A stretch of 64,000 nucleotides of DNA from Brassica napus. Its lineage: Eukaryota; Streptophyta; Magnoliopsida; Brassicales; Brassicaceae. Within the stretch, counting starts at the first letter, position 1. Each line of letters starts with the position of its first letter. Shown piece by piece: positions 6,104 to 44,621 of this stretch. A program made the position numbers and the translations under genes. The notes beneath the pieces are model-generated. The model ran no database searches, was not told where the DNA came from, and saw only the letters and a list, made by a program, of their open reading frames with translations. The DNA lies in NCBI RefSeq assembly GCF_020379485.1, contig NC_063436.1, positions 26,720,423 to 26,784,422 of the forward strand. The letters are read 5' to 3'.

Positions 6104-7147
6104 CTAGATTTTTTACCCGCACATCCGTGCGGGTAGATTTTCATTTTATAAATATATAACGGATACCATCTCAAAACTTTAAAAGACATGATTTATATTT
6201 TAGTGTTATATATTGTGTAAATTTATAATGTTATTGGTTATGTTTCTTATTCGATATTATAAATGTATAATGATTTGTTTTATATATTTTAATTTATTAT
6301 TAATTATTATTATATATTAATATATTTTCGAGTTTGGTAAAATAAATTGATAGTATGAAATAAAAAAATTGAGAATCTCCTTAATTTTTTATAATTTTTA
6401 CAGAATGTATACAATACATTTTAAAACTTTATTTGTTATACTATAAAACTGATATTTTCTTAGCATAATTTATATTTCTATGTTATTTGTTTTAGTATAT
6501 TGTGAGATTTTATAAGTAAATACATTATAATAATACTATATTATTAATTATGGAATCAATCGCTGCATTAATTAAAAAAATATTTTAAAATTTTATTAAG
6601 ATTTTGTTAGGTTTTTTCAACCTATTTTATTATAAGTAAAAATAAAATTTAAATTTACAGTTAAAATTTATTTACTAATATCTATATAATTTATAAGATT
6701 TTTTAGAAGTTATATATTAAATTGATTAACTTAAATATTCAAATAGATGAAATTGATGAAATAGACCTATTATGACTTTTATGGTATTTTTTTAATAAAT
6801 AAGATATAGAATATAATTACAAAATTTGAAAAATAGCATACACTTTTATTTTATTTTGTTTTATAATAAAATTTTATTTAAATTAATGAATAATAGTATA
6901 TATTATTAATTACAAAATTAATCAATGGTATTAATTTATATAAAATATTTTAAAATTTTAGAAAGATTTTGTTAGATTTTTTCTTAATATTTTGTTATAA
7001 CTAAAAATAAAATTTAAATTTATAGTTAAAATTGATTTATTATTAATATCTTAATATAAATAATTAAATAAATGTAATTAACGAAATGGACCTAGTATGA
7101 CTTTTTTATGGTAGATAAAAATGGTACTTCTCTTTTAATAGAGAAGA
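6104..7147 (-). mobile_element. non-autonomous Helitron, 1044 bp
   Basis: On the minus strand the element starts with TC (7147-7146, TCTTCTCTATTAAAAGAGAA) after a host A. It ends in CTAG (6107-6104) before a host T, the A/T insertion preference of Helitrons. A hairpin with 8-bp stem, ACCCGCAC-GGAT-GTGCGGGT, sits just before the 3' end (6116-6135). No Rep/helicase coding sequence is present; the interior is AT-rich. Confidence 0.85.
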
Positions 7148-7265
7148 TGATTGTTTCGGTTTTAAACTCTACTTTCGTCAATGTTATGTGTTACTTATCG
7201 CTAAACTAGATTACATTCAGAACTATTGGAAATTTCAGTTGGAAATTTACAGTATTATAATAGAA

Positions 7266-9537: not shown

Positions 9538-9840
9538 TTATATTAATAAAATGCAGTCCTTCCATTTTGGAAATATTGTTTTTGATAAAAATAAACTATG
9601 GATTATATATATATTACCATTACATACTCTCAATTTCAGAAGGATTCATATTCTAGAAAAAAAAATTGTTTCAAAATAATACATTTTTTAATTTTTTTCT
9701 ATCTATTATTTAATAAAAACTGTAAATTTCAAAAAATAATAATGGTGTTTATTGGATTTCTATTAAATAAAAGTTATGAAAAAATATTGTTCACAAAAAA
9801 AACAGTATATTTACAATAAAATTTTAATGTGTTTTGTTAA

Positions 9841-12800: not shown

Positions 12801-13550
12801 ATAGACACATTACTCCTAAAGAAGATAATTGAATTAATAATTATTGGTATTGAACCAAAATAAATATGAAAATAAATCATAGAAAATTTTCTTTTCATGA
12901 AAAAAAATATAGAATATGTTTTAAAATTATTAATTATTCATAATAGTTTTAAAGTTTATAAACTCTTCAGATTTAGGTTTAAATAAATTGTTGATGTAAA
13001 CTTTTGAGGCTTTTTGGCGACCTTTTGAAGATTGTTCTACAATGGGTAGCAGTTATCAAAATATCATTGTAAGTGACATCAACTCATATTGATTCTAAAT
13101 ACCATACAAGATTTCTAATACCGTAACTTAGAATTTCATTGTTAATTAATAGTGCAAGCTCACTGATTTCAAGCAAACAATATAAATTTTTGAATATCTA
13201 CTATGTTAGAATAGTGATGTAATATGTTCTCAAATTTTACACGTGTAATACATGGTTCATTTTTATCGCAATTTTATCTATGATTAATAATTTGTTTCCA
13301 TGACAATCCAATATATAAGATAAAAAAAATTTGGATCATAACTTAGATTTAACTATTCTTTATTCATTTCACATTTGCTGATCTTTCTATATATAGTTTT
13401 AGATAGTACATTGATAACAGTCAGTTTTAGTCCTTTCTAATTTAGTATATGGTTCATATTTTATAAAATGGGATGTAATATATGTGCATTATTATATTAA
13501 ATACATTTATATTTGTCTAACTCCGGGCGTAGCCCGGACAAAATCTCTAG
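9841..13550 (+). mobile_element. Helitron, 3710 bp, carrying an RPA-like pseudogene
   Basis: It starts TCTAACTAATACTAAAAGGG at 9841 after a host A and ends CTAG at 13547-13550 before a host T. The hairpin CCGGGC-GTA-GCCCGG lies at 13523-13537. The 5' part holds a promoter-like and 5' UTR-like stretch and then a decayed replication protein A-like gene. Plant autonomous Helitrons often encode RPA70-like proteins beside RepHel. No RepHel is seen here, so this is a non-autonomous relative or a derivative. Confidence 0.85.
10380..11790 (+). pseudogene. decayed RPA1/RPA70-like OB-fold protein gene inside a Helitron
   Basis: Pieces in several frames match the OB-fold RPA-like proteins common in plant Helitrons. 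In order: an RFWEARNV...VDMLLLDSK block (about 10400-10468, split by a frameshift); ATLMLATVNVNRLATYRTYL and GSMYSITGFDV (10771-10870); IRFSDATSLDEITKPASPIP (about 10920-10980); PLLRGYAKVEPLTIAELK (about 11190-11240); a C-x2-C...C-x2-C zinc-ribbon block (11411-11505); YLVEMAIADDTA (about 11588-11624); VMTKLHNMRVYEDD (about 11651-11692). Frameshifts and stops (for example after 'IFLL') break the reading frame. RPA proteins bind single-stranded DNA, which fits a rolling-circle element. Non-functional as read. Confidence 0.78.
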
Positions 13551-14563
13551 TATATATAAAAATGTAAAATATGTATCTTTTTGAAACAAAGAAAGTATAT
13601 ATCATGTCTAACCAGCATACGAGTTTCTCTCAAAAGTTTTCTGAATTCTTATATTAAGATGAGCTTTTAAACCAACTAATTTCTAATATTTCCCTTTCAA
13701 CTTGCGTGGGCCTCCAACCCATTTTAGACAGTCAAGACTCAATAAGACCAGCTCTCCTGGATCCAATGGAATAACTACGATTCTACACTAAGATGATTTT
13801 TATCATGGGATTTATTTTCGTTTGATTGGAAATGTGTTTGCACTAGAGTCTTTGTATGAAAATTCTAGCCACCCTTTTTTAATATATTACACCGAATTTT
13901 AGCAAAAAAAAAATTTGCATATATATATATAAACATGTAACTTGAGAAAAAATGAAATAAGATTTATAAACACTATAGTTTTTAGGAGAAATTTTATATT
14001 TACCATTTTTATGGTACCACTTTTTATCTTTACCACCAAGAAAGAGACATTTTCAAAGATACATTTTTCATTAAGTGACAAAAGAACAAAATCATTATTA
14101 TTATATATATATATATATATATATATAATAGATTATTATTTAAATAAATAAAATAAAAAAATAAAAATAATTTTTTCTTTTATGTTTTTGAATTATACTT
14201 TTTCAAATTCGAACCTTTATAAATTTTTTTTTCGAATTTTTTTTAAAAATTTGTTTTTTAAAAATTTTTCTTTTGAAAATCGAAAATTATGTTTGAAACT
14301 ACTTTCAAAATTTTTTAAATTTTTTTTGAAGTATTTATTTATATATTTATTAGAATCCTAAATTTTACATTCCAAAAACCCTATCTCACTCCTATTCCAA
14401 AAACCCTATCTCACCCCTTCATTAAAAGTGAGAGTAAAAATAATTGTAAACATGAAAAGTGGTATTATGAATATGATATTTGTGGCAATTTCCATTTTAT
14501 ATTAAAATTAACTAACTAAAATTTTCTGCTTAAGACCATGTTTGTTTCTGTATACAGACGCTG
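13551..14563. other. intergenic, simple repeats
   Basis: No gene recognised. A (TA)n microsatellite lies at about 14102-14127. Long A/T homopolymer-rich stretches occupy 14150-14350, followed by two copies of an 'aaaaaccctatctcac' motif near 14375-14415. Confidence 0.5.
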
Positions 14564-14571
14564 CATCTGGA

Positions 14572-14917
14572 CAGTGATGTGCATATACTTTTGGGGGCCT
14601 AAGACTAATTATTTTTAAAATAAATTTTTTTTCATAATTTTTTTAACATAGTTAGAAAGGTAGATACCAAGTACGTTTATGAAAAAAGGGAAACATTATT
14701 CAAAAGAGATCAAACTAAAATGCAGAGAACAAAATATATAGACAACAAGTTCTTTATAAACATGTGTATACATTCTTCTTCTTTTTTTGAGCAACGTGTA
14801 TCCACTCATACTTCATAAACTACTACTGCATTTTGTGTATATGGACCTCAAATATTGATAAAAAATAGGAAGCCTGAGACGATCGCCTTTTTTTTTACTA
14901 TGGTGAGCACGGCTCTG
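14572..14917. mobile_element. hAT-like MITE, 346 bp, with 8-bp target duplication
   Basis: The element begins CAGTGATGTGC and ends GCACGGCTCTG, imperfect inverted termini of hAT type (CAG...CTG). It is flanked on both sides by the identical 8-mer CATCTGGA (14564-14571 and 14918-14925), the hAT target-duplication length. The interior is AT-rich and non-coding. Confidence 0.75.
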
Positions 14918-15068
14918 CATCTGGATGCAGTGTAGGCCCTGAACTAAAGTAGGAGAACCATCTGTTTTAGGCACCAAACTAGACTACATGTTAAAGAGCG
15001 CCAAATTTTTTAAAATATGCTTGTATTCTAGTGATTGTGTATCACTTTATTATGTGTTATATACTAGT

Positions 15069-15735
15069 CTTGATTGGTAGAGCATTAGCATTAACAGTAG
15101 TAGTATATAAAAGCAGTATGTTGTAGGAGATGTATGCTTTTGTTAAACTGTTTAATAGGATGATTAGTAGACCAGTATGAATATGCTAGTTAAAATAATT
15201 ATAAAAATTAGTATATAATATATAATATATTTATAATGAATATATTTCTAATATATATATATATATATATATTAACATATAAAATTAAAAGATATAAAAT
15301 TAATTTATTTTATTTAATAATTTTAAATTATGTTTATTTCGAAAATTATTATTTTAAAATAAATTTTATGATTAAAATATCTATTTAAAAAATAATATTA
15401 CACATTTAAAATAAATTAAATTATATTTTAATTGTAAAATACTATTTAAAAAAATATTTTTATTGTAAATTAATTTTAGAAATCAAAATTTTATTTTCTG
15501 GATATAAAATAATTTTATGATATTACTAAATAAAATAAATAAATTAATTATATATTTTCTTAGTCTTATAAATTATAAATGCAAATGTTCTTATAAAAGC
15601 TTCATATGAGAACATAGGCGAGAGAGCATTTGGAGAGTTTTGGCATTTAGTAAATGCTTCTATAAATATTTTTCTAACAATTGTTGATTGGATAATGTAA
15701 AGCATAATGCTAATGCTAATGCTCTACCTATCAAG
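15069..15735. mobile_element. MITE-like element with roughly 24-bp inverted termini
   Basis: The left end CTTGATTGGTAGAGCATTAG at 15069 is the near-perfect inverse of the right end (about 15712-15735). The roughly 620-bp interior is AT-rich and non-coding. A clear target duplication was not found. A sequence resembling a pol III B-box, GGTTCGAAAC, follows the right end at 15741 and the left terminus resembles an A-box, so an insertion into an old tRNA-derived SINE is an alternative reading. Confidence 0.55.
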
Positions 15736-15989
15736 CCCTAGGTTCGAAACTTGATGGGTGCCATACTATTTTTTTTTGCTTTATGCGGCAGTTTATATTG
15801 GGCCTAGCCTTATCTGAAATTCGGATGTTAGCATTATTCAAATGTTATTCGTTTGGACACTATTGCATCAACATCTATAATATCTTGAATATCTTGATAT
15901 TTGAGATGCTAAAAAATACAAAAGATCTAAATACACTTAGTACAAATATAAAACATAACTAATTAGTTATTATAATTACTATAAAATAT

Positions 15990-16560
15990 TTTTGATAAAA
16001 AAATTGCGATTTTTCGCCAAAAATCAGAAACCCGTTTTCACACCAAAACTGAAGACGCGTTTTTTCGCTGAAATCCAAAAATGCATTTTCCGCTGAATTT
16101 CGAAAATGCGCTATCTCGCCAAAACGAAAAAATGTGTTTTCAGTGGAAAACACGTTTTTTTGCTGAAACCCAAAAATGTTTTTTTTCCGCTGAAATCCAA
16201 AAAGAAAATTTTTGCAGAATTTCGAAAAACTGTTATCTCGTCAAAACGCAAAAATGTGTTTTCGTGTCAAAACCCAAAAACATGTTTTCCCGCTAAAATC
16301 TAAATATGCACTTTCCCACCAAAACTCAAAAACACATTTTCTCGCCAAAACTCGAAAACAGTTTTTCTCGCCAAACCCGAAAATATATTTTCCCGCCAAA
16401 ATCCGAAAACACGTTTTCCCGTTAAAACAAAAGTAAAGATTTTCCCCCGAAACCCAAAACACATTTTCCCGCAAAAACACAAAAATGCGTTTTCGCGAAG
16501 AAACCCAAATATGTGTTTTCCCGCCGAAATCCGGAAAACACGTTTTCCCGCCAACACCAG
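15990..16560. repeat. degenerate minisatellite rich in TTTCCCGCC motifs
   Basis: About twenty diverged units of roughly 27 bp follow the pattern 'ttttcccgccaaaacccgaaaacac'. TTTCCCGC, the canonical E2F-binding core, is exact at 16286-16293, 16389-16397, 16465-16472, 16517-16525 and 16544-16552. Near-misses such as TTTCTCGCC occur in the other units. The regular spacing creates open frames on both strands, which are repeat artefacts and not genes. Confidence 0.8.
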
Positions 16561-16801
16561 AAAATGTATTTTTTCGCCTACATCCAAATTATATGTTTTC
16601 GTCAAAATTGCAAAATTAACTTTCTTATCAAAATCCGCAAAATTGTATTTTTTACAATATTCAAATAAATTATTTTGTATTTCTTTTTTTTTGCATAAAA
16701 ATACGATTTTGCGGATTTTGATAAGAAAGTTAATTTTGCAATTTTGACGAAAACATATAATTTGGATGTAGATGAAAAAACACATATTCTGGTGTTGACG
16801 G
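16548..16801. repeat. foldback: roughly 105-bp inverted repeat
   Basis: The left arm (about 16548-16653) and right arm (about 16697-16801) are reverse complements with an uninterrupted core of about 67 bp (from 'acatccaaattatatg' to 'aaaatccgcaaaat'). A roughly 43-bp T-rich loop separates them. The left arm overlaps the last unit of the TTTCCCGCC array, so array and foldback probably belong to one foldback-type element. It is non-coding, and its transcript would form a long hairpin. Confidence 0.8.
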
Positions 16802-17113
16802 AAAAATCACGAATTTTTAGTCATTTGAAATACTAGTATTCAAATGCTATTATGAATTAAAAAAAAAACAAATAATTTAACATCCAATGTTGCATCTGGA
16901 TGCAAATACTAACTATATAAACCAACAACATCCGGTTGTATTGTATTATGTTTTTTATGCTGTAATAAGTTGCTAAGCAACATGCAACATCATTACCAGA
17001 AAAAAACTTTGTTTGAATATAAAAATGTTATGTTTCTACTGGGCTTTTGATGGAGTGTTTAACAAATTGGCCCATAGCTAAAAATTATACAAAATTGCTT
17101 TCATTTTCCAACA

Positions 17114-22190: not shown

Positions 22191-22864
22191 CATGTATAAA
22201 AATGATTGGTTTCATTATGGTCAAACACAGAATGAGTAAGAATACGATTTTTCATTCAGAGAATTTCTTCGGAATTCGTTGACTGGTGTATCTTCTCAAA
22301 TTCAACTGCCTCTAACATTTCTCTCGTCACATTGGGCGTAGACTTCTTCTTTTTTGACCTTTTAAGCTGATAACATAATAATTATTAGAATGACACTTTT
22401 GTAGTTTTATATCGTTTACTTTTCTTGGACCAGAGGCAATTGAAGAAAAGAAACTTCAGTTGTTATTGTGTTTTGTGTTTATTGGACCGTGTTATGCTTC
22501 TCCGTTTGCAGCTTTTGGAACGCAACGACAAAGGTAATGCTTCTCCTGTTTCACCAAAGTACCTCTCATTGACAAACAAAGCAGAATAAGTTGGATGTGT
22601 GTTAATGAACACTTATGTAGGGAGGACCAATGACTCGACTTTGGTCTGTCATGTCTTGAACGACATTCAGACAACGTTCTGACTAGGCGATTGGTCCCAA
22701 AAGCTTTGTCTTCTTGGGTTATGTAAGCGAAAATATATTGTGACCTATGTTACATGGAACCAAAAGCTGATAGTGGAAACAAAATTTTATGGAAGTGCAG
22801 AACTAAGATCCTTTTGAAAAAAACAACTAGGAAGAAAAACATGTTAGAAGTGTATATCTAAATA
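22191..22864. other. intergenic 3' of the RS40 relic
   Basis: No domain recognised. It may include the relic's former 3' UTR. It ends at the host A (22864) that precedes the first unit of the Helitron dimer. Confidence 0.4.
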
Positions 22865-25800
22865 TCAATACTATTAAAACAGAAGACCTTTTTTTGAGGT
22901 GACCTCCTGTTTCAGCAGTATTTACAAAATCATGCCACTGGCTTAATTAAAACCAATGTTTTTATTTAATTCTGTATTTTTCAAAATTCTTTTGATTTAA
23001 ATAGCAACACCTATATTTAATTAACAATGCCTTCCTATCGGGTTATTTAAACAGCAACACCTACGTTTTACAAAACTTCAATTGTTATAAACAGCAACAC
23101 TGATTTTCAATTCTTATACAGTATACGTACATAACATCTTTGTATATTGATTCTGTTTTTCCATCAACACCAAAGCTTGAACGTTTATTGGAATCTGCAA
23201 ACTACCAATAAAAACAATACATTCTGTTAATACCAGTGTATCTGTATCGACCATTCATCACTTCCAATCCATGTTTTGGTTACAAAAGATTGCACCAAAA
23301 AACATACATGTTGCAGTATTCAAAATCATGAAAATCTAACACTTTATAGTATTATTCGTAAGCTTGCATTTTTATATGTATAGTATGTGATACAAACGAA
23401 CCCATAAACCCCAGATCCTTTTCAGTATTTTAATTTATTAAAATAAAGCAATATCATAAATACCAATCTTTTTTGGGTTTAAAAACCATAAATAGCTATA
23501 CCATCAAATAAAAAGCAAAAATTTAATCAAATAAACTATTTTTTCCGAAGTTGCTTAAATAACAATAACCAATATATTAAATCATAAATACCTGGTCGAG
23601 TTTTATATTTTCATCTTTAAAATATCAATAACAACCAATCAAAACAAGAAGCCACAAAATTTGGTAACTTAAAACTCTATCATGGAATAAAATTTTACAT
23701 AATAAATACACATAATTAATATCCTCACGGGATTAACCACTGTGCAATATATTCGACAAAATTATTGAATTTTCAAAGTTTTTTTCAAATCAATAACCCA
23801 AAATATAAACCACTAAATCAAAAGCTAAAAATTTGGCAAAAAAAACTAGATTTTCGGAATACATAACCATATCGAATAATCATAAATACCAATCTTTTTC
23901 AAATCAATAACCATAAGTAACTTTACCATTAAATAAAAAGCTTTCATTTAAGCAATTAACAAAATTTTCGGAAGCTGCTTAAATATCAATAACGAATATA
24001 CAAAATCATAAATAACTGGTCAATCTTTATATTTTCATATCTTTAAAATATTAATAACAACCAATCAAAACAAGAAACTGCAGATTTTGGTAATTTTGAT
24101 CTATATTATAATAAACCAAATATCTAATTTGTATAACTTGAATAAACTTGATTCACAAAATATATATGATTTGAAAATATATTTATATATATATATGATT
24201 TGATTAAACTCACGGCAAATATTCTCTAACAACATTGAATTGGAATATCCTAAACCCATGACCTTTTCTTTTGCTATATATACAGCATTTTAACCTCACG
24301 GCAAACACACAGATTTCAAAACGTTTCACAAAATCACACATAATGTCTTCTAAGAAAAAGATGGTGTACCTTGATGAGAGATTAGGCCATGGAAAACAAT
24401 TTGGTTGATTGAAGCCAAAGTCATACACACCTGAAAACCATACAATGTCGGGTTTGGTGAGACTTTAGAGATCATATTTGCAGACAAAAAAGTAAATGAA
24501 GCGACATTTTGAATTGAGTAGTAATATATTACCTGATTAACGTTAGCTACTGTCTCATGCCATCTCAGAATTATCCTAATCTTCTTAGTTTATTTCCTTA
24601 CGTTTCTAATCTGTAAAAGTGTAAAAATAATAACATTTAAATTCCTGAGTTGTCATAGGTATGCATTCCTTACATTTTGACCAAATGAATATATATTAAA
24701 ACAAGTAAGGATGGTACTCAGTAGAACACTTATCTTCATACTGATTGTTTGTAGTGCACAGCGTGGATGACAACTGGACTGTAGTTCCTGAAAATGTATT
24801 TGTTTTCAATCAAATTATTTTTTGTACTTATAAATGATAAATATATTATATCTCAATAGTAAATAATTTTTTTTTGGTAAAATACAATAGTAAATAATTG
24901 ACAGTAATAGTATATTATCTTTCATTCAATACGCACCCGTGATAGTTTATATACATCGATCAATGTTTAATGATACAGATTTTTTCATTTGTAGAAATAT
25001 TTGTGAACTCCCGTTGCAAACCTCACAATAAAAACAAAATAAAGTAAGAATATATTTTGTAAAAATAAAAATAGAAGAAATTACAATGAAGATAAGAAAT
25101 ATTTTTGTTTTCGAGAATATGAAAATATATCTTTTGATAAAATATTATTATTTATTATAAATACTTTTGGTTTTGTCAACTATAAATACTTATTTAATTT
25201 TTTTTATTGTAAGAGGATCTACAACTTTAACAAACGGGAGTTTATTTAATTGTATACCTTTTGAATGTTTGTTTCAGACAAACTCAACACCATGTTTGTA
25301 CGGCTTAAACTTTAAAGAAATTATTTACTTATAAGTCATCGCAACACGTTTCCATCTCATCTGAATAAGAAATAAAATCATCGTATCCAACATGCAAACC
25401 AGATTAAAAAAATAAGTTAGTTCTGAAAATACAATATTTAAAAGAGATATGGATGAAGAAGAGAAAAGGAAATAACAATGGATTTACCTTTTAGGGATCA
25501 GATGAAGTGTTACTTTCGGAAATCACCATCTTCTTCAATTCTTCTCTTTAACCGAGAGGAACCGACAGCTGAGAGAGTGAAATGTTTTTAATGAAACCTG
25601 AAAAAAAACACATGTTTGTCTGTTCCTTTAATGGGCTTTAGATTAAAAAAATCTCAAGGCCCAAACTAAAAACACATCTTTAATATATAACCACTGCATT
25701 ATATTTATAATAATTATTTGAACTGAATTTATCTAATTTATTAATTTATTTTAAATAAATATTTAATTGAAATGATCGAATTTTATTTAGTTAATTAACT

Positions 25801-27466
25801 TAAATATCATAAAAATTAAGTGTAAATATATTACTAACATTATATTTAAAACACAAACAAGCCTATTAACCGAAAACAAAAATAACTATATTTGAAGAAA
25901 ATATAATTTTATAAACTAACATAACTTTTTTTTCAATATCGAATATTATTAAACGAAATTAAAATTTCTAAGTTCCTTAACAAGAAAAAAAAGGATCCAA
26001 ATCGCTGAAGGTACCAAATGGATGTACAAGAAAATGAACACAAACCTTTGGAGTTTTTGTCTATTGAATCACCAAATCGAATGAGCTCAACAAGGTCTTT
26101 CTTTCAATGCATCCGACCAACTTCTATTTCATCGGATCTATTATATTATTTAAGTCATCGGAGGGACATGCAAAACAAATAAAATAAGCTTTGTGTAAGA
26201 ATTGATTTGAATTCAACTCTCTACCGAGGATGAAGAAAATAGAGTAAAAGGTTTACCTTGGAGACGAGGTCGATTCGTGGAAGACAAAACTCATTGCTTG
26301 CTTCAATCGCCTTTTGAGAGTTTGATTTTTTTTTTGTAACCAGAAAGTTGTCTGAAAGTGGCAAAAATATCTGGAGTCTATCGGGTAGAAGCTAGAATTA
26401 GTGTGAGCTTGGGCCGATTTTGATGAAATCCTTATATAAAAGAATTTGCTTAAGAAAAAAAAAATTACAGCCCATCTTGATAATTTTATAAGCTTAATTA
26501 TAATCAAGCCATATTCTGGCCCATTTAAAAAAAAATAACAATCACATATCAAATAAAAAGAATTAAATTATAATTAATTCAACATTTATAATGTACTAAT
26601 AATATAAACATTCAAAGTTTTTTTTTTAAAAAAACTATAACATTTTTTTCAACTTTATTGTAATTAATAGTTAAGATAAATATATGTTATCCTATATCCT
26701 ACAAAGGAATATTGATCAAACTCTATTCCCAAGTAAAACTTTACCACAAATAAATATTATATGTGTACAATATAATTTATTCATAATTTAAAATCTGAAA
26801 GGCATAGAAATCATAATTTACCTTGACTTTAAGTTAACAAATAAAAAATCAATAGTATTATAGTAATAGCAGATTGATATATTGTTATTATGTGAAAAAT
26901 TTAGACAACTTTCTCAATTGTGTAGTTCGAAATAACATTAAACATGTAGACATTTAATCTCTTATAAGATACAAGCAAAATATACATATTTGGATATGTT
27001 AATATAACTGAAACAATCCTCGGGCCGAGGATTCCTCGCACTTTCATAATATAAATGCTATTTTTTGCTATCTTATTATACCCTATTTAAAGAAAAAAAT
27101 GAAAAAAAAAATTCAAAATGTTTTATTTTACTTTATTGGAAACAATAAATCTGAATAGAAATAGAACAAGAACCAAAATACTCGAAACTATATCAGATTC
27201 ATATTATATCCAGATCCAAACGTAAAACCAAACAATTCAAACACTCTAACCAAACACAGCTTTATACATAAACAAATGGTTCATATATTTTAAACCACAA
27301 AACCCAAAACAACAACTAAAACTAAAATTAAAAATCGATATAAATAAATCAGAACTATACTGAAAACCGAATGTCTTGCCAAAACATATGAATCAACAAA
27401 CATTCATGTTAATAAAATTGCCAAAAAAAAATATTCCGCGCTTTCAAAGCGCGGGTCACTATCTAG
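22865..27466 (+). mobile_element. Helitron, 4602 bp, unit 1 of a head-to-tail dimer
   Basis: It starts TCAATACTATTAAAACAGAA after a host A (22864) and ends CTAG (27463-27466). A near-terminal hairpin, CGCGCTTT-C-AAAGCGCG, lies at 27437-27453. The next base is the TC of unit 2, with nothing between. Internally there is a diverged direct repeat (about 23430-23670 and 23880-24095). There are spliced-looking, minus-strand gene-like pieces with GT/AG borders around 24210-24830, 25480-25560 and 26040-26400, for which no family was recognised. No Rep/helicase ORF, so non-autonomous. Confidence 0.88.
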
Positions 27467-30400
27467 TCAATACTATTAAAACAGAAGACCTTTTTTTGAG
27501 GTGACCTCCTGTTTCAGCAGTATTTACAAAATCATGCCACTGGCTTAATTAAAACCAATGTTTTTATTTAATTCTGTATTTTTCAAAATTCTTTTGATTT
27601 AAATAGCAACACCTATATTTAATTAACAATGCCTTCCTATCGGGTTATTTAAACAGCAACACCTACGTTTTACAAAACTTCAATTGTTATAAACAGCAAC
27701 ACTGATTTTCAATTCTTATACAGTATACGTACATAACATCTTTGTATATTGATTCTGTTTTTCCATCAACACCAAAGCTTGAACGTTTATTGGAATCTGC
27801 AAACTACCAATAAAAACAATACATTCTGTTAATACCAGTGTATCTGTATCGACCATTCATCACTTCCAATCCATGTTTTGGTTACAAAAGATTGCACCAA
27901 AAAACATACATGTTGCAGTATTCAAAATCATGAAAATCTAACACTTTATAGTATTATTCGTAAGCTTGCATTTTTATATGTATAGTATGTGATACAAACG
28001 AACCCATAAACCCCAGATCCTTTTCAGTATTTTAATTTATTAAAATAAAGCAATATCATAAATACCAATCTTTTTGGGGTTTAAAAACCATAAATAGCTA
28101 TACCATCAAATAAAAAGCAAAAATTTAATCAAATAAACTATTTTTTCCGAAGTTGCTTAAATAACAATAACCAATATATTAAATCATAAATACCTGGTCG
28201 AGTTTTATATTTTCATCTTTAAAATATCAATAACAACCAATCAAAACAAGAAGCCACAAAATTTGGTAACTTAAAACTCTATCATGGAATAAAATTTTAC
28301 ATAATAAATACACATAATTAATATCCTCACGGGATTAACCACTGTGCAATATATTCGACAAAATTATTGAATTTTCAAAGTTTTTTTCAAATCAATAACC
28401 CAAAATATAAACCACTAAATCAAAAGCTAAAAATTTGGCAAAAAAAACTAGATTTTCGGAATACATAACCATATCGAATAATCATAAATACCAATCTTTT
28501 TCAAATCAATAACCATAAGTAACTTTACCATTAAATAAAAAGCTTTCATTTAAGCAATTAACAAAATTTTCGGAAGCTGCTTAAATATCAATAACGAATA
28601 TACAAAATCATAAATAACTGGTCAATCTTTATATTTTCATATCTTTAAAATATTAATAACAACCAATCAAAACAAGAAACTGCAGATTTTGGTAATTTTG
28701 ATCTATATTATAATAAACCAAATATCTAATTTGTATAACTTGAATAAACTTGATTCACAAAATATATATGATTTGAAAATATATTTATATATATATATGA
28801 TTTGATTAAACTCACGGCAAATATTCTCTAACAACATTGAATTGGAATATCCTAAACCCATGACCTTTTCTTTTGCTATATATACAGCATTTTAACCTCA
28901 CGGCAAACACACAGATTTCAAAACGTTTCACAAAATCACACATAATGTCTTCTAAGAAAAAGATGGTGTACCTTGATGAGAGATTAGGCCATGGAAAACA
29001 ATTTGGTTGATTGAAGCCAAAGTCATACACACCTGAAAACCATACAATGTCGGGTTTGGTGAGACTTTAGAGATCATATTTGCAGACAAAAAAGTAAATG
29101 AAGCGACATTTTGAATTGAGTAGTAATATATTACCTGATTAACGTTAGCTACTGTCTCATGCCATCTCAGAATTATCCTAATCTTCTTAGTTTATTTCCT
29201 TACGTTTCTAATCTGTAAAAGTGTAAAAATAATAACATTTAAATTCCTGAGTTGTCATAGGTATGCATTCCTTACATTTTGACCAAATGAATATATATTA
29301 AAACAAGTAAGGATGGTACTCAGTAGAACACTTATCTTCATACTGATTGTTTGTAGTGCACAGCGTGGATGACAACTGGACTGTAGTTCCTGAAAATGTA
29401 TTTGTTTTCAATCAAATTATTTTTTGTACTTATAAATGATAAATATATTATATCTCAATAGTAAATAATTTTTTTTTGGTAAAATACAATAGTAAATAAT
29501 TGACAGTAATAGTATATTATCTTTCATTCAATACGCACCCGTGATAGTTTATATACATCGATCAATGTTTAATGATACAGATTTTTTCATTTGTAGAAAT
29601 ATTTGTGAACTCCCGTTGCAAACCTCACAATAAAAACAAAATAAAGTAAGAATATATTTTGTAAAAATAAAAATAGAAGAAATTACAATGAAGATAAGAA
29701 ATATTTTTGTTTTCGAGAATATGAAAATATATCTTTTGATAAAATATTATTATTTATTATAAATACTTTTGGTTTTGTCAACTATAAATACTTATTTAAT
29801 TTTTTTTATTGTAAGAGGATCTACAACTTTAACAAACGGGAGTTTATTTAATTGTATACCTTTTGAATGTTTGTTTCAGACAAACTCAACACCATGTTTG
29901 TACGGCTTAAACTTTAAAGAAATTATTTACTTATAAGTCATCGCAACACGTTTCCATCTCATCTGAATAAGAAATAAAATCATCGTATCCAACATGCAAA
30001 CCAGATTAAAAAAATAAGTTAGTTCTGAAAATACAATATTTAAAAGAGATATGGATGAAGAAGAGAAAAGGAAATAACAATGGATTTACCTTTTAGGGAT
30101 CAGATGAAGTGTTACTTTCGGAAATCACCATCTTCTTCAATTCTTCTCTTTAACCGAGAGGAACCGACAGCTGAGAGAGTGAAATGTTTTTAATGAAACC
30201 TGAAAAAAAACACATGTTTGTCTGTTCCTTTAATGGGCTTTAGATTAAAAAAATCTCAAGGCCCAAACTAAAAACACATCTTTAATATATAACCACTGCA
30301 TTATATTTATAATAATTATTTGAACTGAATTTATCTAATTTATTAATTTATTTTAAATAAATATTTAATTGAAATGATCGAATTTTATTTAGTTAATTAA

Positions 30401-32068
30401 CTTAAATATCATAAAAATTAAGTGTAAATATATTACTAACATTATATTTAAAACACAAACAAGCCTATTAACCGAAAACAAAAATAACTATATTTGAAGA
30501 AAATATAATTTTATAAACTAACATAACTTTTTTTTCAATATCGAATATTATTAAACGAAATTAAAATTTCTAAGTTCCTTAACAAGAAAAAAAAGGATCC
30601 AAATCGCTGAAGGTACCAAATGGATGTACAAGAAAATGAACACAAACCTTTGGAGTTTTTGTCTATTGAATCACCAAATCGAATGAGCTCAACAAGGTCT
30701 TTCTTTCAATGCATCCGACCAACTTCTATTTCATCGGATCTATTATATTATTTAAGTCATCGGAGGGACATGCAAAACAAATAAAATAAGCTTTGTGTAA
30801 GAATTGATTTGAATTCAACTCTCTACCGAGGATGAAGAAAATAGAGTAAAAGGTTTACCTTGGAGACGAGGTCGATTCGTGGAAGACAAAACTCATTGCT
30901 TGCTTCAATCGCCTTTTGAGAGTTTGATTTTTTTTTTGTAACCAGAAAGTTGTCTGAAAGTGGCAAAAATATCTGGAGTCTATCGGGTAGAAGCTAGAAT
31001 TAGTGTGAGCTTGGGCCGATTTTGATGAAATCCTTATATAAAAGAATTTGCTTAAGAAAAAAAAAATTACAGCCCATCTTGATAATTTTATAAGCTTAAT
31101 TATAATCAAGCCATATTCTGGCCCATTTAAAAAAAAATAACAATCACATATCAAATAAAAAGAATTAAATTATAATTAATTCAACATTTATAATGTACTA
31201 ATAATATAAACATTCAAAGTTTTTTTTTTAAAAAAACTATAACATTTTTTTCAACTTTATTGTAATTAATAGTTAAGATAAATATATGTTATCCTATATC
31301 CTACAAAGGAATATTGATCAAACTCTATTCCCAAGTAAAACTTTACCACAAATAAATATTATATGTGTACAATATAATTTATTCATAATTTAAAATCTGA
31401 AAGGCATAGAAATCATAATTTACCTTGACTTTAAGTTAACAAATAAAAAATCAATAGTATTATAGTAATAGCAGATTGATATATTGTTATTATGTGAAAA
31501 ATTTAGACAACTTTCTCAATTGTGTAGTTCGAAATAACATTAAACATGTAGACATTTAATCTCTTATAAGATACAAGCAAAATATACATATTTGGATATG
31601 TTAATATAACTGAAACAATCCTCGGGCCGAGGATTCCTCGCACTTTCATAATATAAATGCTATTTTTTGCTATCTTATTATACCCTATTTAAAGAAAAAA
31701 ATGAAAAAAAAAATTCAAAATGTTTTATTTTACTTTATTGGAAACAATAAATCTGAATAGAAATAGAACAAGAACCAAAATACTCGAAACTATATCAGAT
31801 TCATATTATATCCAGATCCAAACGTAAAACCAAACAATTCAAACACTCTAACCAAACACAGCTTTATACATAAACAAATGGTTCATATATTTTAAACCAC
31901 AAAACCCAAAACAACAACTAAAACTAAAATTAAAAATCGATATAAATAAATCAGAACTATACTGAAAACCGAATGTCTTGCCAAAACATATGAATCAACA
32001 AACATTCATGTTAATAAAATTGCCAAAAAAAAATATTCCGCGCTTTCAAAGCGCGGGTCACTATCTAG
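27467..32068 (+). mobile_element. Helitron, 4602 bp, unit 2 of a head-to-tail dimer
   Basis: Same length and practically the same sequence as unit 1, with a constant offset of 4602 bp over the whole unit. By eye I found one difference, a T in unit 1 (about 23471) that is G in unit 2 (about 28073). It starts TC at 27467 directly after the CTAG of unit 1 and ends CTAG (32065-32068) before a host T (32069). The pair therefore has a single A/T insertion site: A, unit 1, unit 2, T. Confidence 0.88.
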
Positions 32069-34004: not shown

Positions 34005-36910
34005 ATGAACAAAGCAACGGTCTCAGGAGCGATAGAATCTAGTTTCTCATTGACTGATGCTCTAACTATGCAGAGGAACGGAGGCATCAGTAATCCGCGT
34101 GTCCCAACGTCACCAATGTCCTTCTCGAATAACATTAACGTTCCAGGCTCCTTGGTTCTTGATGGCTCTGCTTCAATGCAGCAAGGAGGACAAGGCTCAG
34201 TTCCAATGAGGGAAAACAGTTATCTCCATGTGGATAAGAAGCCCAAGTTAGAGGTTAAGCAAGAGGACATGCTGCAGCAGCAGGTTTTACAGCAGTACAT
34301 CCAGCGTCAGGACCCCACGGGGAGGAATCCACAGCTGCAAGCTTTGCTTCACCAGCAGAGGCTGAGGCAACAACAGCAGCAGATTCTTCAGTCCATGTCA
34401 CCCTCTCAGAGACTCCAACTCCAGCAGCAGCAGCAGTTGTTGAGACAGCAGCAAGGCGCTCAGCAGATCCCTCCTAGTGTACGTCCTTTTGAACCTGGCG
34501 TCTGTGCAAGGAAACTGATGATGTACTTGTATCATCTACAGCAACGACCTGCTGTAAGCTATAATCTTTGGTCTTTTTAGCAGTTTCATCACATCTATTC
34601 AGTTCCAGCATTGATAGTTGATACCTTTTTTGTAGGAAAATTGCATTACTTATTGGAGAAAATTCGTGGCTGAGTACTTCTCACCTCGTGCAAAGCAAAG
34701 GTTGTGCTTGTCACAGTACGAAAGTGCTGGCCACCATGCGCTTGGCATGGTTTCCCAGGCAGCTCCGGTCAGTCTTCTCTTACCTTTGTAGTCACACGCA
34801 TGTTTAGTCGACTTCTGAATCTCTTTTTGTTTGCAGGATATGTGGCAGTGTGATCTTTGTGGCACAAAGTCTGGAAAAGGATTTGGTAAGAGACTAAACG
34901 CTCTCTTTTTGTCTCTTACAACTCTGATAATTGTTTTCTATTGTCAAAATCTGCAGAGGCAACGTTTGATGTGCTTGCAAGACTAAATGAAATCAAATTT
35001 GCTAGTGGCATCATTGATGAATTCTTATATCTGGACCTTCCACGAGAAAACAGATTTTCCAATGGACTGATGATGTTAGAATACAGAAAAGCAGTTCAGG
35101 AAACTGTACATGAGCAGTTTCGTGTTATCCGTGAGGGCCATCTTCGTATCATATTCTCTCAAGATTTGAAGGTATTACCAATTTTTTTCGTTGCCTTGCC
35201 AAATCAGTGAATATTAAAAGTGAAGAGGAAAAAAGCAATCAGTCACCAGTGTGCTAGTGCCTAGCTAATGTTTGACTTTGCTTCTTTCCAGATACTTTCT
35301 TGGGAGTTTTGTGCTCGGCGTCATGAAGAGCTTCTCCTCCGCAGACTTATTGCTCCACAGGTCTTATTCTGATGACATAGCCTCTTTTTTATGAGCTTAA
35401 GACTTTACATAAAACGTTTAGGGTCAACATTGTCCCTTAAATGCAATTTATGAGCTTAGATATGAACACAAAGTATGTAAACTTGGAAAGTGAATTGAAA
35501 ACTTATCGGTGATGCAGGTGAACCAGTTGCTTCAGGTTGCACTAAAATGCCAGAGCACAATCTCGGAGAGTGGGTCAGATGGAGTTTCTAAGCAGGATTT
35601 ACAGTCAAACAGTAACATGTAAGCTGATCCATAACATTTGATTTGCCTTTGATGCAAAGTATTCTTCTTATTGTCCATGTTCTAGCATATTCTGTTTCTA
35701 GTGCAATATATCATTGTTGGGTGCCAATTTGTGTCTCAGGGTCTTGGGAGCAGGACGGCAGCTGGCAAAGTTCATGGAATTACAGTCTCTGAATGATCTT
35801 GGCTATCCAAAAAGATATATCAGAACTCTACAGGTACTCTTTAAGTTCCTTTCCTTTCCTAGCTGTTAGTTTTATATCTGAAGTCTTAAGAAGTCCTAAT
35901 ATCGAGCCATCACGTGTTGCAGATATCTGAAGTTGTTAAGAGCATGAAGGATCTGATGAACTTCACTGGCGACCACAAAATTGGTCCTATTGGTAAGTCT
36001 ACAACATTCTTCTTGATATGAGACCTGAAACAAGGTTGCCATTCTTCTTGGAATGATACTTTATTTTTGTAGCTCTCCTTTTGAGATGTTCTGTTTGATG
36101 ATCTGAGTTTCTGACTGAATGTAATCGTTTTGATGCTTCTATGCAGAGGGGTTGAAACAGCTTTTTGAACAGACAGCGGCAGTAAAGCTCCAGAGACAGA
36201 AAGAGATGGAGCAGTTAGGTAATAGTGGAGCTATAATGAATGCGTCATCTCAAGCTCAGATGGCGTTGACACAAGGAACGATGAACGGCCTAACTGGGAA
36301 CAACAATCACCCTCAAATTGTCGGTCGTGGAGCTATGAATGGCTCAGCTCAAGCCGCAGCAGCTCTGACCAACTACCAGAGCATGCTTATGAGGCAAAAT
36401 GCTATGAACAACCCAAACTCGAAACAAGAGGGGTTCTCGAGTCAGAGCCAGAGTCCATCTTCCTCGTCTCATCAGAGGCAGAACTTAGCCACAGGTGGAT
36501 TTCCCAGCTCTCCCCAGATGCAACAGCGCACCATGAATGGCGCTCCCAACACGCTTCAACAGAATCCTCCTCATCGTTTGCTGCAACCACCACATTCACA
36601 TGGTACCAATCAGGAGCAGCAGATGCTTCACCAGATGTTGCAGCAGATGTCTGAAAACGGAGCAAATGTGCAACAGCAACAAGCCTTTTCAGGTCAAAGT
36701 GGTGGCAACAGTAATGCAGAGAGAAACCCAACTGCCTCTACTTCAAACATCTCAGGAGGAGGAGTACGAGTTCCAAGCCGCAACAACAGTTTCAAATCAG
36801 CTTCAAACAGCAACCTTCATTTAACAGAAGATATACCTATCACAGAACTACCTCATGATTTCTCAGCAGACGACTTCTTCAACAACAGCGATATTTATGG
36901 CAGCTTGTAA
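34005..36910 (+). CDS. SLK: SEUSS-LIKE transcriptional co-regulator (LIM-binding/LDB family)
   Basis: Nine coding exons: 34005-34553, 34636-34767, 34837-34885, 34957-35171, 35292-35360, 35518-35618, 35740-35833, 35923-35992, 36147-36910. All junctions are GT-AG and the total is 680 codons plus stop. SEUSS-family proteins are nuclear adaptors that bring LEUNIG-type co-repressors to transcription factors in flower and embryo development. The N-terminal third is Gln-rich. The conserved LIM-binding-like domain starts near residue 165 (GVCARKLMMYLYH) and continues through WRKFVAEYFSPRAKQR and FEATFDVLARLNEIKFASG to the 'GPIEGLK' exon. A Gln/Asn/Ser-rich tail follows. A leader intron (33732-33860) precedes the ATG. 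Length and position fit Arabidopsis SLK3 (AT4G25515) or SLK1 (AT4G25520); which one is unresolved. Confidence 0.93.
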
Positions 36911-38033: not shown

Positions 38034-40365
38034 CTACAAGCTACCCTGCTTATCACTGTCGTTGAAGTTGTCGTCTGAGAATTCGACAGGTATTTCTGTG
38101 GCATCTTCTGGAAAATGTGTCTGCTGAAACGTGTTGAGAGTGCGCTGCTGCTGCTGTTGCATCTGGGGAGAGCTGAGAAATCCACCTGTTGCTAAGTTCT
38201 GCCTCTGATGACCCTGGTTTGAGTTTGGGGTTGGATGCTGACTCGACGAGAACCCCTCTTGTATGCTCGTATCTGAGTATTGGTTATTCACAGCATTTAG
38301 CCTCATAAGCATGCTTTGGTTGTTGGTCAGAGCAGCAGCGGCTTGAGCTGAGCTATGATGGTGATTGTTGTAGCCAGTTAGGCCGTCCATCTGAGCTTGA
38401 GCTGACCTATTCATAGCTCCACTATTCCATAAGTGCTCCATCTCTTGCATTTTCTGTCTCTGGAGCCTCATTCTCTCTGTCTGTTCCGAAAGTCGTTTCC
38501 ACCCCTCTATGTAAGGGCATCAAAACATTTACATTCAGCCACAAACTCAATCACCGGATCAAAACAGAACATTTCAAGTGAACCAACTTACCGATAGGGC
38601 CAATTTTGTGGTTCTCTGTGAAATCCATCAGAGCCTTCATGCTCTTGACAACTTCATATGTCTGCCACATCGCAATGGCTCACTATTAGGTCTTCTTACG
38701 ACTTCAAGATACAAAACTAACAGCTAGGAAAGCAGCTAACTAGTACCTGTAGAGCTCTGAAATATTTTTTCGGATAGCCAAGATCATTCAGAGGCTGTAA
38801 TTCCATGGAATTTGCCAGCTGCCTTCTTGCCGCCAAGACCCTGAGACACAAATTGGCACCCAACAATGACATATAGCACTCAAGTGTCGTTGACAATAAC
38901 AAAAGAGTAGAATATTGAATGTATGAAGGGTAAATCAAGTGTCATGGACACATGGATCAACTAACATGTTACTATTTGTTTGTAAATCCTGCTGAGCAAC
39001 AACCTGAAGCAACTGGTTCACCTGCATGCATGACCGATAAAAAAAGGTTTGAGGAAACAAAGTAATAAAGTTGAGCACAAGCATTTTGTAAGTCTGAATC
39101 TCCTAATAATCATCAGAACTAGGACCTTGGGAGCAATAAGTCTGCGGGGAAGAAACTCTTCATGACGCTGAACACAAAACTCCCAACGCAGGATCTAGAA
39201 AGATCCAAAGGTCACGCACGATTAGCTAAAGCATTAGTAGTACAGTGGTAAAACAGAAAAAAAAAATGGAATAAAGAGAACCTTTAAATCTTGAGAGAAT
39301 ATGATCAGAAAAGGGCCCTCATGAACAACACGACACTGCTCATATTCAATTGTCTGAACTAGTTTTCTATATTTTAATACAATCAGTCCACTGGAAACTC
39401 TGCATTCTCGTGGATCTTCCAGAGATAAGAGCTCGTTAACGAAGCCACTAGCAAATTTGATTTCAAATAGTCTGGGAAGCACATCGAAAGTTGCCTCTGC
39501 GGATTCAAAACAAGAAGACGACAGCTATTTTAGCATATGGAAGTTGCTTCACTGTGCTTAAAGTAAAGGGAAGTACACAAATGACTCTTACCAACTCCTT
39601 TTCCAGACTTGGTGCCGCAGTGATTACACTGCCACATACCCTGCAAACAAAACAAGAAGATAGTATAGTTGGAGTAAACATGTTTGTTTAACAAAAAAAA
39701 AAATAGGCTGATGAAGAAACTGACCTGTGGTAAGGTGCCAAGCATGTGGTCAGCACCTTTGTACTGTGAAAAGCACAACCTTTGCTTTGCACGAGGTGAG
39801 AAGTATTCAGCCACGAATGCCCTCCAAAAGGTAATGCAATTATCCTATAAAAAAAAAAGGTATCAGAAGGCTAACTTAAGTAGATGTTATAAAACTGGTA
39901 AAAGTCAGAGAGGGATAAGTATTAGCTTATTACCTCAGGTCGTTGCTTTATGTGATGCAAGAACATCATAAATTTCCGATGAGCGCACATACCACCTCCA
40001 AAAGGACATACATTAGGAGGGATCTGTTGTTGCAGTAGTAGCCGTCTCAGCTGCTGCTGTTGCTGAAGTTGGAGTTGAAGCGTCTGCTGGTGTTGCCTCA
40101 GCCTGTACCGGTGAAGCAAAGCTTGCAACTGCGGATTCCTTACGGTGGGGCCCTGGTGCTGGATGTACTGCTGTTGTGGAAGATGGCGGGGTCTCTGAGA
40201 TTGAAGAAACTGGTTCTGTTGCCTCCTCCAAGCTTGCAACTGCACATCTTGTCCCCCCGTGGGTGGGTCCTGATACTGATTGTAGTGCAGCATGTCGTCT
40301 TGCTCAACTTCTTCTAACTTGGGCTTCTTCTTCTTATCCACATGGTAATAATTGTTTTCCCCCAT
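38034..40365 (-). CDS. SLK: second SEUSS-LIKE gene, N-terminally shortened
   Basis: Nine coding exons on the minus strand: 40365-39934, 39844-39725, 39640-39592, 39496-39282, 39194-39126, 39021-38966, 38840-38747, 38661-38592, 38506-38034. Five internal exons have exactly the sizes of those in the gene at 34005 (49, 215, 69, 94, 70 bp). The sum is 525 codons plus stop, without a frameshift. Compared with that paralogue it lacks about 70 N-terminal residues: an in-frame TGA lies four codons before the ATG, which corresponds to an internal Met. It also lacks 15 codons in exon 6 and has a shorter tail. The LIM-binding core is kept (FWRAFVAEYFSPRAKQR, FEIKFASGFVNELL). Function as a SEUSS-type adaptor is plausible but altered; it could be an early-stage decaying copy. 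Confidence 0.88.
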
Positions 40366-40800
40366 CGGAACTGAACTGCATCAGACCCACCAAGAAGGAA
40401 TGTTAGTGGTTATTTGAGGATGAGACAGGAACCAAATGAAAAGGTTGAGACTTGAAAGTTGAAACCTAACAAACAGAATCATCTTAGCCAATCACAAAAC
40501 CAAATGGATCCTCCTAAGCACTCTTCTAATCAGTAATCACCCATCAAGAAACGGTTAAAGAAGACGGAAAGGAGCAAACTTGACGTAGCTTCATCAGCAT
40601 CAACGAGCATCTCAAAAGGATGGTGAACTTACCTAAAGGAACAAACTTTCAAAATCGAACTGTAATCAAAACCTACAAACTTTCGATCACGTAGACTCCG
40701 ACTCCGACTCCGACTCGCACTCGCACTCGCACCAATCCCAGTTCCCAAAACCAAGAAACTCCAAGTTCGCACCTTTTTTTTCAAACTTTAAAATGATCTT
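40366..40800 (-). promoter_or_regulatory. leader of the second SEUSS-LIKE gene with hexamer repeat
   Basis: A GTAAGTTC donor lies on the minus strand near 40632 and a GATGCAG acceptor at about 40380, mirroring the leader intron of the other SEUSS-LIKE gene. Upstream, a hexanucleotide array (ACTCCG then ACTCGC units on plus, about 40687-40731) sits in the presumed 5' UTR. Stretches homologous to the first coding exon of the paralogue are still discernible, with large deletions. Confidence 0.5.
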
Positions 40801-41130: not shown

Positions 41131-43573
41131 CTAGATTTTTTAACCGCGCTACGCGCGGATAAGATATTATATGTATTTCTCAATTCTAAAAAAATAATGT
41201 ATAATATTGTATTACATTATTTAAAGAATATAAAATAAGACTACATAACATAAATATATTTTTAAAATTTTCTTTGTGGAAATCATTATGTTGTTTGATT
41301 TTTGTACTTGATTCACATATTTGCATAGTTATTTGTGATAGATGAATATATTTTAATTATCAGTAAATAATATATATTTATTATATAATATAAGAAAAAT
41401 AAAATTATTTACTTTTAAAACAAACTTGTCTCATGTTGGGGACTCGGTTATAGACATATCATATTCGAAGGAGACATTTTTACAATTATTAATCTTCTTA
41501 ACAGTCAAGAAACAAATCTGAATATCAAAACAATATGTCATACGATCTCTTTGTGGAATAACTGCTCTGAAGAAATTCAATTTAGGCATCAAAAAGGACT
41601 GGAAATGGATGTGCAGATGTTTTATCTAAGTCAGTTTTACAAAATACTATTCATAGTTCATATATCATTTATGTCCATCCTTTTTTTTGTCTATCATTTC
41701 TTAAACATCTTGAAATAACTGATGTTAATTAATAATAAACTTTTGGCTGGCAAAAAAAATTAATTTTGTCTAATTATCGCTTAATTTTTTAAACTGATAT
41801 ATATGTATTTCTCAATTTCTAAAAAAATAATGTATAATATTGTATTACATTATTTAAAAAATATAAAATAAGACTACCTAACATAAATATATTTTTTAAA
41901 TTTTCTTTGTGGAAATCATTATGTTGTTTGATTGTTGTACTTGATTCACATATTTGCATAGATATTTGTGATAGATGAATAACTATATTTTTATTATCAG
42001 TAAATAATATATATTTATTATATAATATAAGAAAAATGAAATTATTTACTTTTTGAACAAAGTTATCTCATGTTGGGGATTCGGTTATAGACATATAATA
42101 TTTGAATGAGATATTTTTACAGTTATCAATCTTCTTAACAATGAAGAAACAAATCTGAATATCAAAACAATATTTCATACGATCTCTTTATGGAATAACT
42201 ACTCTGAAAAAATTGAATTTAGGCATCAAAAAAGACTGAAAATGATGTGCAGATGTGTTATCTAAGTCAGCTTTACAAAGTACTATTATTCATAGTTCAT
42301 ATATCATTTAAGTCCATCCTTTCTTAACCATCTTGAAATAACTGATGCTAATTAATAATAAATTTTTGGATGGAAAAAAAATCAAATTTGTCTAATTATT
42401 GCTTAAATATTTTATTAATATTGTCTAAGAAGCTTTCAATTGATATCATAGTTTAATTTTTATTAGTTTTTTTTGTTAATTTTAGAGTTTTTTTGTATTT
42501 AATATTTTTTCCATATTAAGCTTATATTTCTTTCACATAATATGTATATGTCATAAAAATTACCATCAAATCAGTTTTACTTATTTATTATTTTGTTTTT
42601 AATGAAAATACACTTTTTAAATAATTTAATTTAAAATAAAATTATATATTAATTTGTTGTATTCTAACAATTTGATTGATTTAATTAATTTGCTTTGGTG
42701 GATAACTTAAAAAGTTTTCATATGAATCGGGAAAAGCAAGCTTATGTTGTTATATTATATTTATTTGTGTATATGGAATCTATATATAATGCTAGTGTAA
42801 TAAAAAAAATAACATTATTTTTTTGTAACTTCAAAAAGATACATTATTACAATTTGAAATTATTCAAAATTGAATAAAATGGTAATTATATAAATATAAT
42901 TGTTTTTTTATCTTGTTTAGATTGATTCTCATGAAAAGAAATCGATAGGTTAAACAAATGCTTCAAAATTTGTTGTGTTATTGTTTTGTCTATAAATTAC
43001 AAAATTTATTGAATTGATATATTTAATTATTGCATCCTTAAATAATATTTTATTAAAACATTAGAGAACTGTGTTTTGAGTTGTTTTGTCAAAATTGTAC
43101 AAAAATCTATGTTTTTTTATATTTGTCACGAAAATTTATATGTTAAACTTTCTTTTACAAAATTCTTAACTTTGTCACGAAAACAAAAATCTATGTTTTT
43201 CATATTTGTCAATGTTCTCACACTTTCAAATAATATATAGCTTAGTCACTTACTTATTTTTTTTGTACAAAACAAAGTATCGGAGTCTTGAAAGTTGAAT
43301 CCATATTATTGTAAATGTACATAAATGTTTGTGATTACATATTTAGTGATTCTTGTATATGTATCCAAGAAAGTTTCAATGGCTTAGTGGTGTATGTCTT
43401 ATATTTATGTCATATTAACCCGGGTTCGATCCTTTCCTTTGCATTCTTTTTATTTTTTACGAAAAAATGAATGAGATGACGTGGCAACTTCGGACTATCT
43501 GATTGGACGATTTTTTTATGCCTACGTGGACACTCTAAGAGGAGGTTATATCCCCCTTTTAGTATAGTATAGA
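41131..43573 (-). mobile_element. non-autonomous Helitron, 2443 bp, with internal duplication
   Basis: The minus-strand 5' end TCTATACTATACTAAAAGGG begins at 43573 after a host A. The 3' end CTAG (41134-41131) is followed by a host T. The hairpin CCGCGC-GTA-GCGCGG lies at about 41143-41158. The interior carries a roughly 640-bp-offset direct repeat (about 41166-41760 and 41800-42372, each beginning 'atatgtatttctcaatt'). No Rep/helicase coding sequence. Confidence 0.83.
43378..43431 (+). other. tRNA-like pol III box pair inside a Helitron
   Basis: TGGCTTAGTGGTG (A-box-like) is followed about 42 bp later by GGGTTCGATCC (B-box-like). This is the spacing of a tRNA or tRNA-derived SINE head. No cloverleaf with an acceptor stem could be built, so this is a relic or coincidence, not a tRNA gene. 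Confidence 0.3.
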
Positions 43574-43939: not shown

Positions 43940-44447
43940 TGTTGACATGAGAGCATGAATGACATAGAGGAAGAAGAGATCAAGTCAAGACATGCATCCG
44001 GAGTGATCAAAGTGTGCTTGTCCGTACAAGTTTGATCTAAACTTGGCGTGCAAGACAAGATGAGACTTATCTGTGATCAAGGAGGATGTGATACTTGCCT
44101 TAAGATATTTAAATGATGTCGGCCAAGAGAAGGGATCCGTTGAAGAAGAGGACAAGGTGGTTCAAAGGAGAGAGAGCCGTTTGGTGCTGTCGCTTTCCAC
44201 CTTTGCTGTGCGCACCTTGCCTTGATCAGTCCCCTTTGTTTATTCTTTTCTTCTATGTCAACTTGCCATTAGTTTATTCATTGTTGTATCTATTTAAGGC
44301 ATGTAACCAGAACCAAATGAATCAAGGAAATGAGTTCCTCTTCTCTTTAGTCTTATGCGATTCTCTCTCTCTCTCTCTCTCTCTCTCGATTCTCTTCACC
44401 TTCTTCATAATTCTCATAATGGCTTAAACAAATCTCATATTCTTTCA
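43940..44447 (+). repeat. 5' LTR of the copia element
   Basis: 508 bp, TG...CA. It contains a (CT)n tract at about 44361-44387 that is one dinucleotide longer than in the 3' LTR. A TATTTAAG motif near 44291 could serve as TATA box. The open frame at its end (from 44113) is LTR sequence, not a gene. Confidence 0.95.
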
Positions 44448-44459
44448 TGGTATCAGAGC
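44448..44459 (+). other. primer-binding site
   Basis: TGGTATCAGAGC directly follows the 5' LTR. It is complementary to the 3' end of initiator tRNA-Met, the usual primer for minus-strand DNA of plant copia elements. Confidence 0.93.
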
Positions 44460-44621
44460 AACCTTACTCTTGAGACCTAAACCTTTTTCTTTCTTCCGCA
44501 AATTCTCTGAGTTCTAAATTCTATTTTTGGCAAAGTTCATCTTGTTCTTGATTCTTTGTTTCCAGAATTTGCCAAAAGTAGCAAAAACCATCCGAAACCT
44601 TTTCTTTTCTTTTCTCTCTTG

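Follow-up and report, generated by a model that had tools for sequence, protein, structure and literature searches.

Two Helitrons that follow each other head to tail without a base between them raise the question of whether they entered the genome together, as one two-unit molecule, or one after the other. We examined such a pair in a stretch of Brassica napus DNA of 64,000 nucleotides (contig NC_063436.1, positions 26,720,423 to 26,784,422 of the forward strand), hereafter called the window and numbered from its first letter. A clean, near-identical head-to-tail Helitron dimer is confirmed in the given sequence. Base-by-base comparison of unit 1 (22865-27466, +) with unit 2 (27467-32068, +), 4602 bases against 4602, gave a single mismatch and no insertion or deletion. 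A preliminary description of this locus had placed two 4602-bp Helitrons at these positions, with nothing between the CTAG of the first and the TC of the second and with the pair in one A/T target, and the alignment bore out each of these points. The left edge of the repeat was exact at 22865, since the preceding bases differ (A at 22864, G at 27466), while on the right the repeat ran one base beyond the second unit, the T at 27467 being matched by the T at 32069. The latter is the host T of the single A/T target, and the A at 22864, directly before the TC of unit 1, is its host A.

The junction (27463-27468, +) reads ...CACTATCTAG followed directly by TCAATACTATTAAAAC..., or, in longer left context, CTATCTAG followed directly by TCAATACTATTAAAAC, so that CTAG is joined to TC with zero bases between the units. 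A 33-base pattern spanning this junction occurred once in the window when up to 3 mismatches were allowed, and in none of 100 shuffles. Duplicated host flanks, which the preliminary description had held to be incompatible with such a dimer, were looked for in the 2-kb flanks at an expect value (E) of ≤0.1, and only a 37-bp match at 78% identity in opposite orientation (E 0.001) was found; nor did the 200 bases adjoining each end of the pair recur elsewhere in the window (E ≤1e-3). The pair thus shows the A-T insertion without target-site duplication that is typical of Helitron1 elements, and the exact CTAG-TC join between near-identical units has the form of a rolling-circle tandem Helitron. 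The only difference between the units is a T at 23474 (+) in unit 1 against a G at 28076 in unit 2, which falls at the boundary of a T run and a G run (T6G3 versus T5G4). Consensus errors are frequent at run boundaries, and the mismatch is therefore weak evidence of divergence; for the same reason we set it aside as proof of two real copies.

Each unit carried the structural marks of a Helitron. The 5′ TC (22865 and 27467) and the 3′ CTAG (27463-27466 and 32065-32068) agree with the TC and CTRR ends of Helitron1 elements. The 3′ terminal hairpin of unit 1 (27436-27454, +; CCGCGCTTTCAAAGCGCGG), with an 8-bp stem and a 3-nt loop, folded as DNA at -10.3 kcal/mol (z-score -6.05), and none of 200 shuffles was equally stable; the 12 nt from the hairpin to the element end (8 nt plus CTAG) likewise fit a Helitron terminus. 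The same hairpin lies in unit 2 at 32038-32056 (+), i.e., at the unit 1 position plus 4602. These features, together with the A/T site lacking a target duplication, match the marks used for plant Helitrons in PMC6591975 (papers are cited by PubMed Central number). The unit is a canonical non-autonomous Helitron of the Helitron1 type. Its longest stop-to-stop stretch is 104 codons and a RepHel transposase (HUH Rep plus helicase) therefore cannot fit, so that a gene of this kind, and with it autonomy, was rejected.

Little else of coding character was detected in the unit. Of eight stretches tried against Pfam, only one had a match up to E 1, to Tweety at E 0.067 and far under the cut-off; the other seven were blank. 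A broken, DUF223-like segment of 44 codons (24378-24509, +, repeated at +4602), read with its one stop as X, matched PF02721 (DUF223) weakly (E 0.0044; 17.7 bits, below the cut-off of 24.6), and its stop-free piece by itself had no Pfam match. RPA-like genes are frequent in plant Helitrons, and this segment is a possible relic of one. The unit is AT-rich (GC content 26.5%, against 34.0% in the rest of the window), and self-comparison of the window showed an older internal direct duplication in it (23453-24115, +), whose two arms, 23453-23691 and 23879-24115, are 80.5% identical.

How the two units came to abut is most likely answered by a rolling-circle or circle-derived product. More specifically, we consider it probable that a two-unit rolling-circle product of the non-autonomous Helitron was inserted in one step. 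An autonomous relative at another genomic location would have supplied the rolling-circle machinery that copied the element. Copying would have run past the 3′ terminator once, either by going round a joined-end circle twice or by producing a concatemeric strand. The resulting two-unit molecule, already carrying the CTAG-TC junction, would then have entered the site flanked by A 22864 and T 32069 in one step. The identity of 4601 of 4602 bases, the coincidence of the unit edges with both Helitron termini, the terminal hairpin and the single target with its unduplicated flanks speak for this origin. The intermediates it calls for have precedents in related systems: the Helraiser element forms covalently closed joined-end circles that are able to transpose, and its 3′ terminator can be bypassed (PMC4778049), while an active Helitron of wheat yields joined-end extrachromosomal circular DNA (eccDNA), with new insertions that strongly prefer AT (PMC13286980).

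Several points weigh against insertion of a ready-made dimer. The CTAG-TC junction is predicted equally well by two canonical insertions (PMC2267711), and variants private to both units would be a prediction of the single event, the comparison covering this window only. In the literature covered, the bypass products carried host flanks or were truncated, the circles were monomeric, and one-step insertion of a dimer was not among the events described; the circles detected in transgenic maize had imperfect ends (PMC10095026). The junction is also not decisive, because dimer insertion, two insertions and circle recombination all yield the same sequence. A single event is favoured because of the near-identity over 4.6 kb and not because of the junction. 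The preliminary description, which proposed rolling-circle read-through or transposition of a circular dimer, is partly supported and has the near-identity in its favour; its appeal to the exact junction does not separate these from two insertions, and it overlooked a second insertion into the host A plus the 5′ T and did not consider recombination of a circle with a resident copy.

Of the alternatives, two separate canonical insertions survive best, although we regard them as unlikely. Unit 2 would have landed first, between A and T, and a second member of its young family, unit 1, would afterwards have entered the A-T formed by the host A and the 5′ T of unit 2. This route is mechanistically complete and has been published for an adjacent maize pair (Du et al. 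2008, PMC2267711): an AT target is restored where the host A meets the 5′ T of a Helitron already in place, and a second insertion there leaves CTAG-TC with no spare base. The bases at 22864-22866 and 27466-27468 fit this route exactly. The opposing view of Pritham and Feschotte, as given in PMC2267711, is that independent insertions should leave an A. For a triple of Helitrons in Metarhizium, the same two alternatives have been proposed (PMC5148889). Against two insertions stands the need for a second strike on one particular AT dinucleotide, in the same orientation and by a copy that differs by one base, and the maize pair, unlike the one in Brassica, is strongly divergent in sequence (PMC2267711).

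We estimated how often such a coincidence would be expected. With random AT insertion and the window-wide AT dinucleotide frequency of 0.106, roughly 0.5 abutting same-orientation pairs of any family would be expected in a genome the size of that of Brassica (0.53 in one case and 0.45 in the other), whereas for near-identical copies from one burst of 10-200 the figure was about 2.7e-7 to 3.3e-4 abutting pairs per genome, all of these being orders of magnitude only. For B. napus, both the number of Helitrons and the genome size were taken from PMC6591975; a B. rapa-like case used the Helitron density in the same paper together with a genome size of 284 Mb that we supplied. Near-identical abutting pairs are thus expected far below the any-family figure. 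Because chance pairs are so rare, insertion of a dimer or recombination with a circle is favoured over two insertions, provided that Helitron ends do not attract further Helitrons. The odds of two insertions would improve if elements hopped locally or preferred such ends as targets; for Helraiser, no local hopping is reported (PMC4778049). The preference for a single event rests on unit identity together with this estimate, which favour it.

Somewhat less likely again is that a single copy already at the site gained one exact unit by homologous recombination with a joined-end Helitron circle. Joined-end circles exist (PMC4778049, PMC13286980), and the product would be identical to the observed pair, so that from the sequence alone this route cannot be told apart from one-step insertion of a dimer; recombination between a small circle and a chromosome is, however, an additional rare step. 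We give slightly less weight still to an artefact of assembly or consensus, in which a single unit in the plant was doubled in the assembly. The position of the one difference at a run boundary would suit this, and the pair was evaluated from the assembly sequence alone. Against it, collapse of near-identical repeats is a commoner assembly error than their expansion, and a false duplication joining CTAG exactly to TC would require reads that bear the junction. Ordinary unequal crossing-over or segmental duplication does yield near-identical tandem copies, but, as the preliminary description had argued, its breaks would not be expected to fall precisely on the two element ends, as both do in this pair. 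With the flanks unduplicated as well, we rejected this as the origin, a highly improbable one; it could only alter the copy number of an existing tandem.

Returning to insertion of a rolling-circle dimer, we considered when it would have taken place. At substitution rates of 6.5e-9 to 1.5e-8, the pair would be about 7,000-17,000 years old if the mismatch is a real mutation, with a 95% range over these rates of about 180-93,000 years. The mismatch may instead be a consensus error, in which case the units are identical and the age is younger or zero. The fuller proposal, that a multimeric rolling-circle intermediate gave rise, in one insertion step, to a full-length 4.6-kb dimer in gene-bearing Brassica DNA within the last ~100,000 years, through machinery that is perhaps still active, is put forward tentatively and is somewhat short of an even chance.

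The preliminary description called the pair a rare snapshot of the mechanism, which was overstated: tandem or head-to-tail Helitrons have been reported in bat, fly, maize, rice and fungi, and the joined-end circles of Helraiser have been shown. Tandem insertions are cited for bat, fly, rice and maize in PMC5148889. In the bat Myotis lucifugus, perfect head-to-tail Helitrons (Pritham and Feschotte 2007, via PMC2267711) likewise have CTAG-TC without an intervening base and were ascribed to rolling-circle replication; the likeness rests on the description in PMC2267711. Helitrons No.1 and No.2 at maize r1 also abut head to tail with a CTAG-TC junction, but the units are strongly unlike and carry different gene fragments, against one difference in 4602 bp in Brassica; they were read as two insertions because lines with one unit only exist and because the units differ so strongly (PMC2267711). 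The Metarhizium acridum triple is likewise in tandem, with the same two explanations, and differs in having three copies of a non-canonical fungal Helitron type (PMC5148889). Helraiser circles (PMC4778049) and the eccDNA of the wheat elements Xuan/Feng (PMC13286980) share the precise junction of 3′ to 5′ end, which there lies in extrachromosomal circles, whereas the Brassica pair is a chromosomal dimer.

Plant centromeres provide a further comparison, in arrays described by Xiong et al., reportedly in 2016. These arrays (cited in PMC6591975, PMC5148889 and PMC10095026) are also tandem and were ascribed to rolling-circle replication, but they consist of truncated elements, with hundreds of tandem truncated CentHel elements in rice (PMC10095026), whereas both 4.6-kb units of the Brassica pair are full-length and share their window with several genes. 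The idea of tandem Helitrons is not new even in crucifers, because an array of tRNA-Cys genes in Arabidopsis has been suggested to consist of short Helitrons in tandem, even though Helitron prediction did not yield a reliable element over these genes (PMC10701932). The available part of a paper on gene capture by B. napus Helitrons (PMC11986588) had no match to tandem, head-to-tail or adjacent, and no published report of this locus was found in a literature search that excluded most subscription journals. Tandem Helitrons are thus already known, and the Brassica pair is a long, clean new example that leaves established Helitron behaviour unchanged. Both explanations published for Helitrons that abut, a rolling-circle tandem or insertions one after the other, still stand together. 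The Brassica pair is near-identical and full-length, its site is single and clean, and many assemblies are reported for the genus, so that population data could separate the three routes. If one-step insertion of a dimer is correct, terminator read-through of an intact plant Helitron becomes testable at one defined locus.

Copies of the unit were also sought elsewhere. Comparison with the whole 64-kb window gave no match outside the pair at E <1e-4. The 5′ terminal 40-mer had one extra match in the window, with 14 of 40 positions mismatched, and the 3′ terminal 40-mer had none at up to 14 mismatches; a scan of viral contigs with the 3′ terminal 30-mer gave 0 matches, as expected for plant DNA. 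A scan for Helitron-like 3′ ends returned five sites, two of them the pair itself, one inside the CBF gene described below, and the others at 13547 (+) and 6107 (-), where a GC-rich hairpin is followed by CTAG and then T in sequence unlike that of the pair. The 5′-end pattern of the pair's family matched only 22865 in the window, and no other 5′-end search was made for 13547 and 6107.

The window contains several further genes and repeats. A DREB/CBF protein encoded at 2001-2657 (-) shared 99% identity with a protein of Brassica napus, 92% with proteins of Hirschfeldia and Raphanus, 91% with one of Eruca and 90% with one of B. carinata, which points to Brassica or a very close relative as the most likely host. 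One record at 100% identity carried no source, as is usual in that search for the window's own proteins. Records labelled Hippophae rhamnoides (99%) and Ageratina adenophora (84%) matched it unusually closely for the named species, and are perhaps mislabelled or contaminated. MutS domains were found in the gene at 56355-57446, whose matches are to MSH3 proteins; among the 120 of 235 matches listed, no species named was a crucifer, full-length relatives lying outside the length limits of the search. Segments of glutamine-rich genes, which we take to resemble SEUSS-like genes, form an inverted pair at 34197-36527 and 38153-40374 (nine blocks, 79-97% complementary), and a Pfam scan of two stretches from this pair gave no match.

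An intact-looking copia retrotransposon lies at 43940-49639, with long terminal repeats of 508 and 506 bp (0 mismatches, 2 gap positions), a 5-bp target duplication, GGATT, and one frame of 1492 codons with gag, integrase and RVT_2 domains. A stop-free stretch with an RVT_3 (RNase H-like) domain at 62530-63267 (-) is probably a retrotransposon relic. At 16009-16806, a degenerate array of TTTTC-CGCC-AAAA-type repeats has long stop-free frames on both strands and terminates in a 110-nt inverted repeat, which is 94% complementary and has a spacer of 44 nt. Finally, tandem duplications were found at 41184-42389 and 433-1281, with spacings of 623-639 and 423-427 bp, respectively, and copies 86-97% alike.

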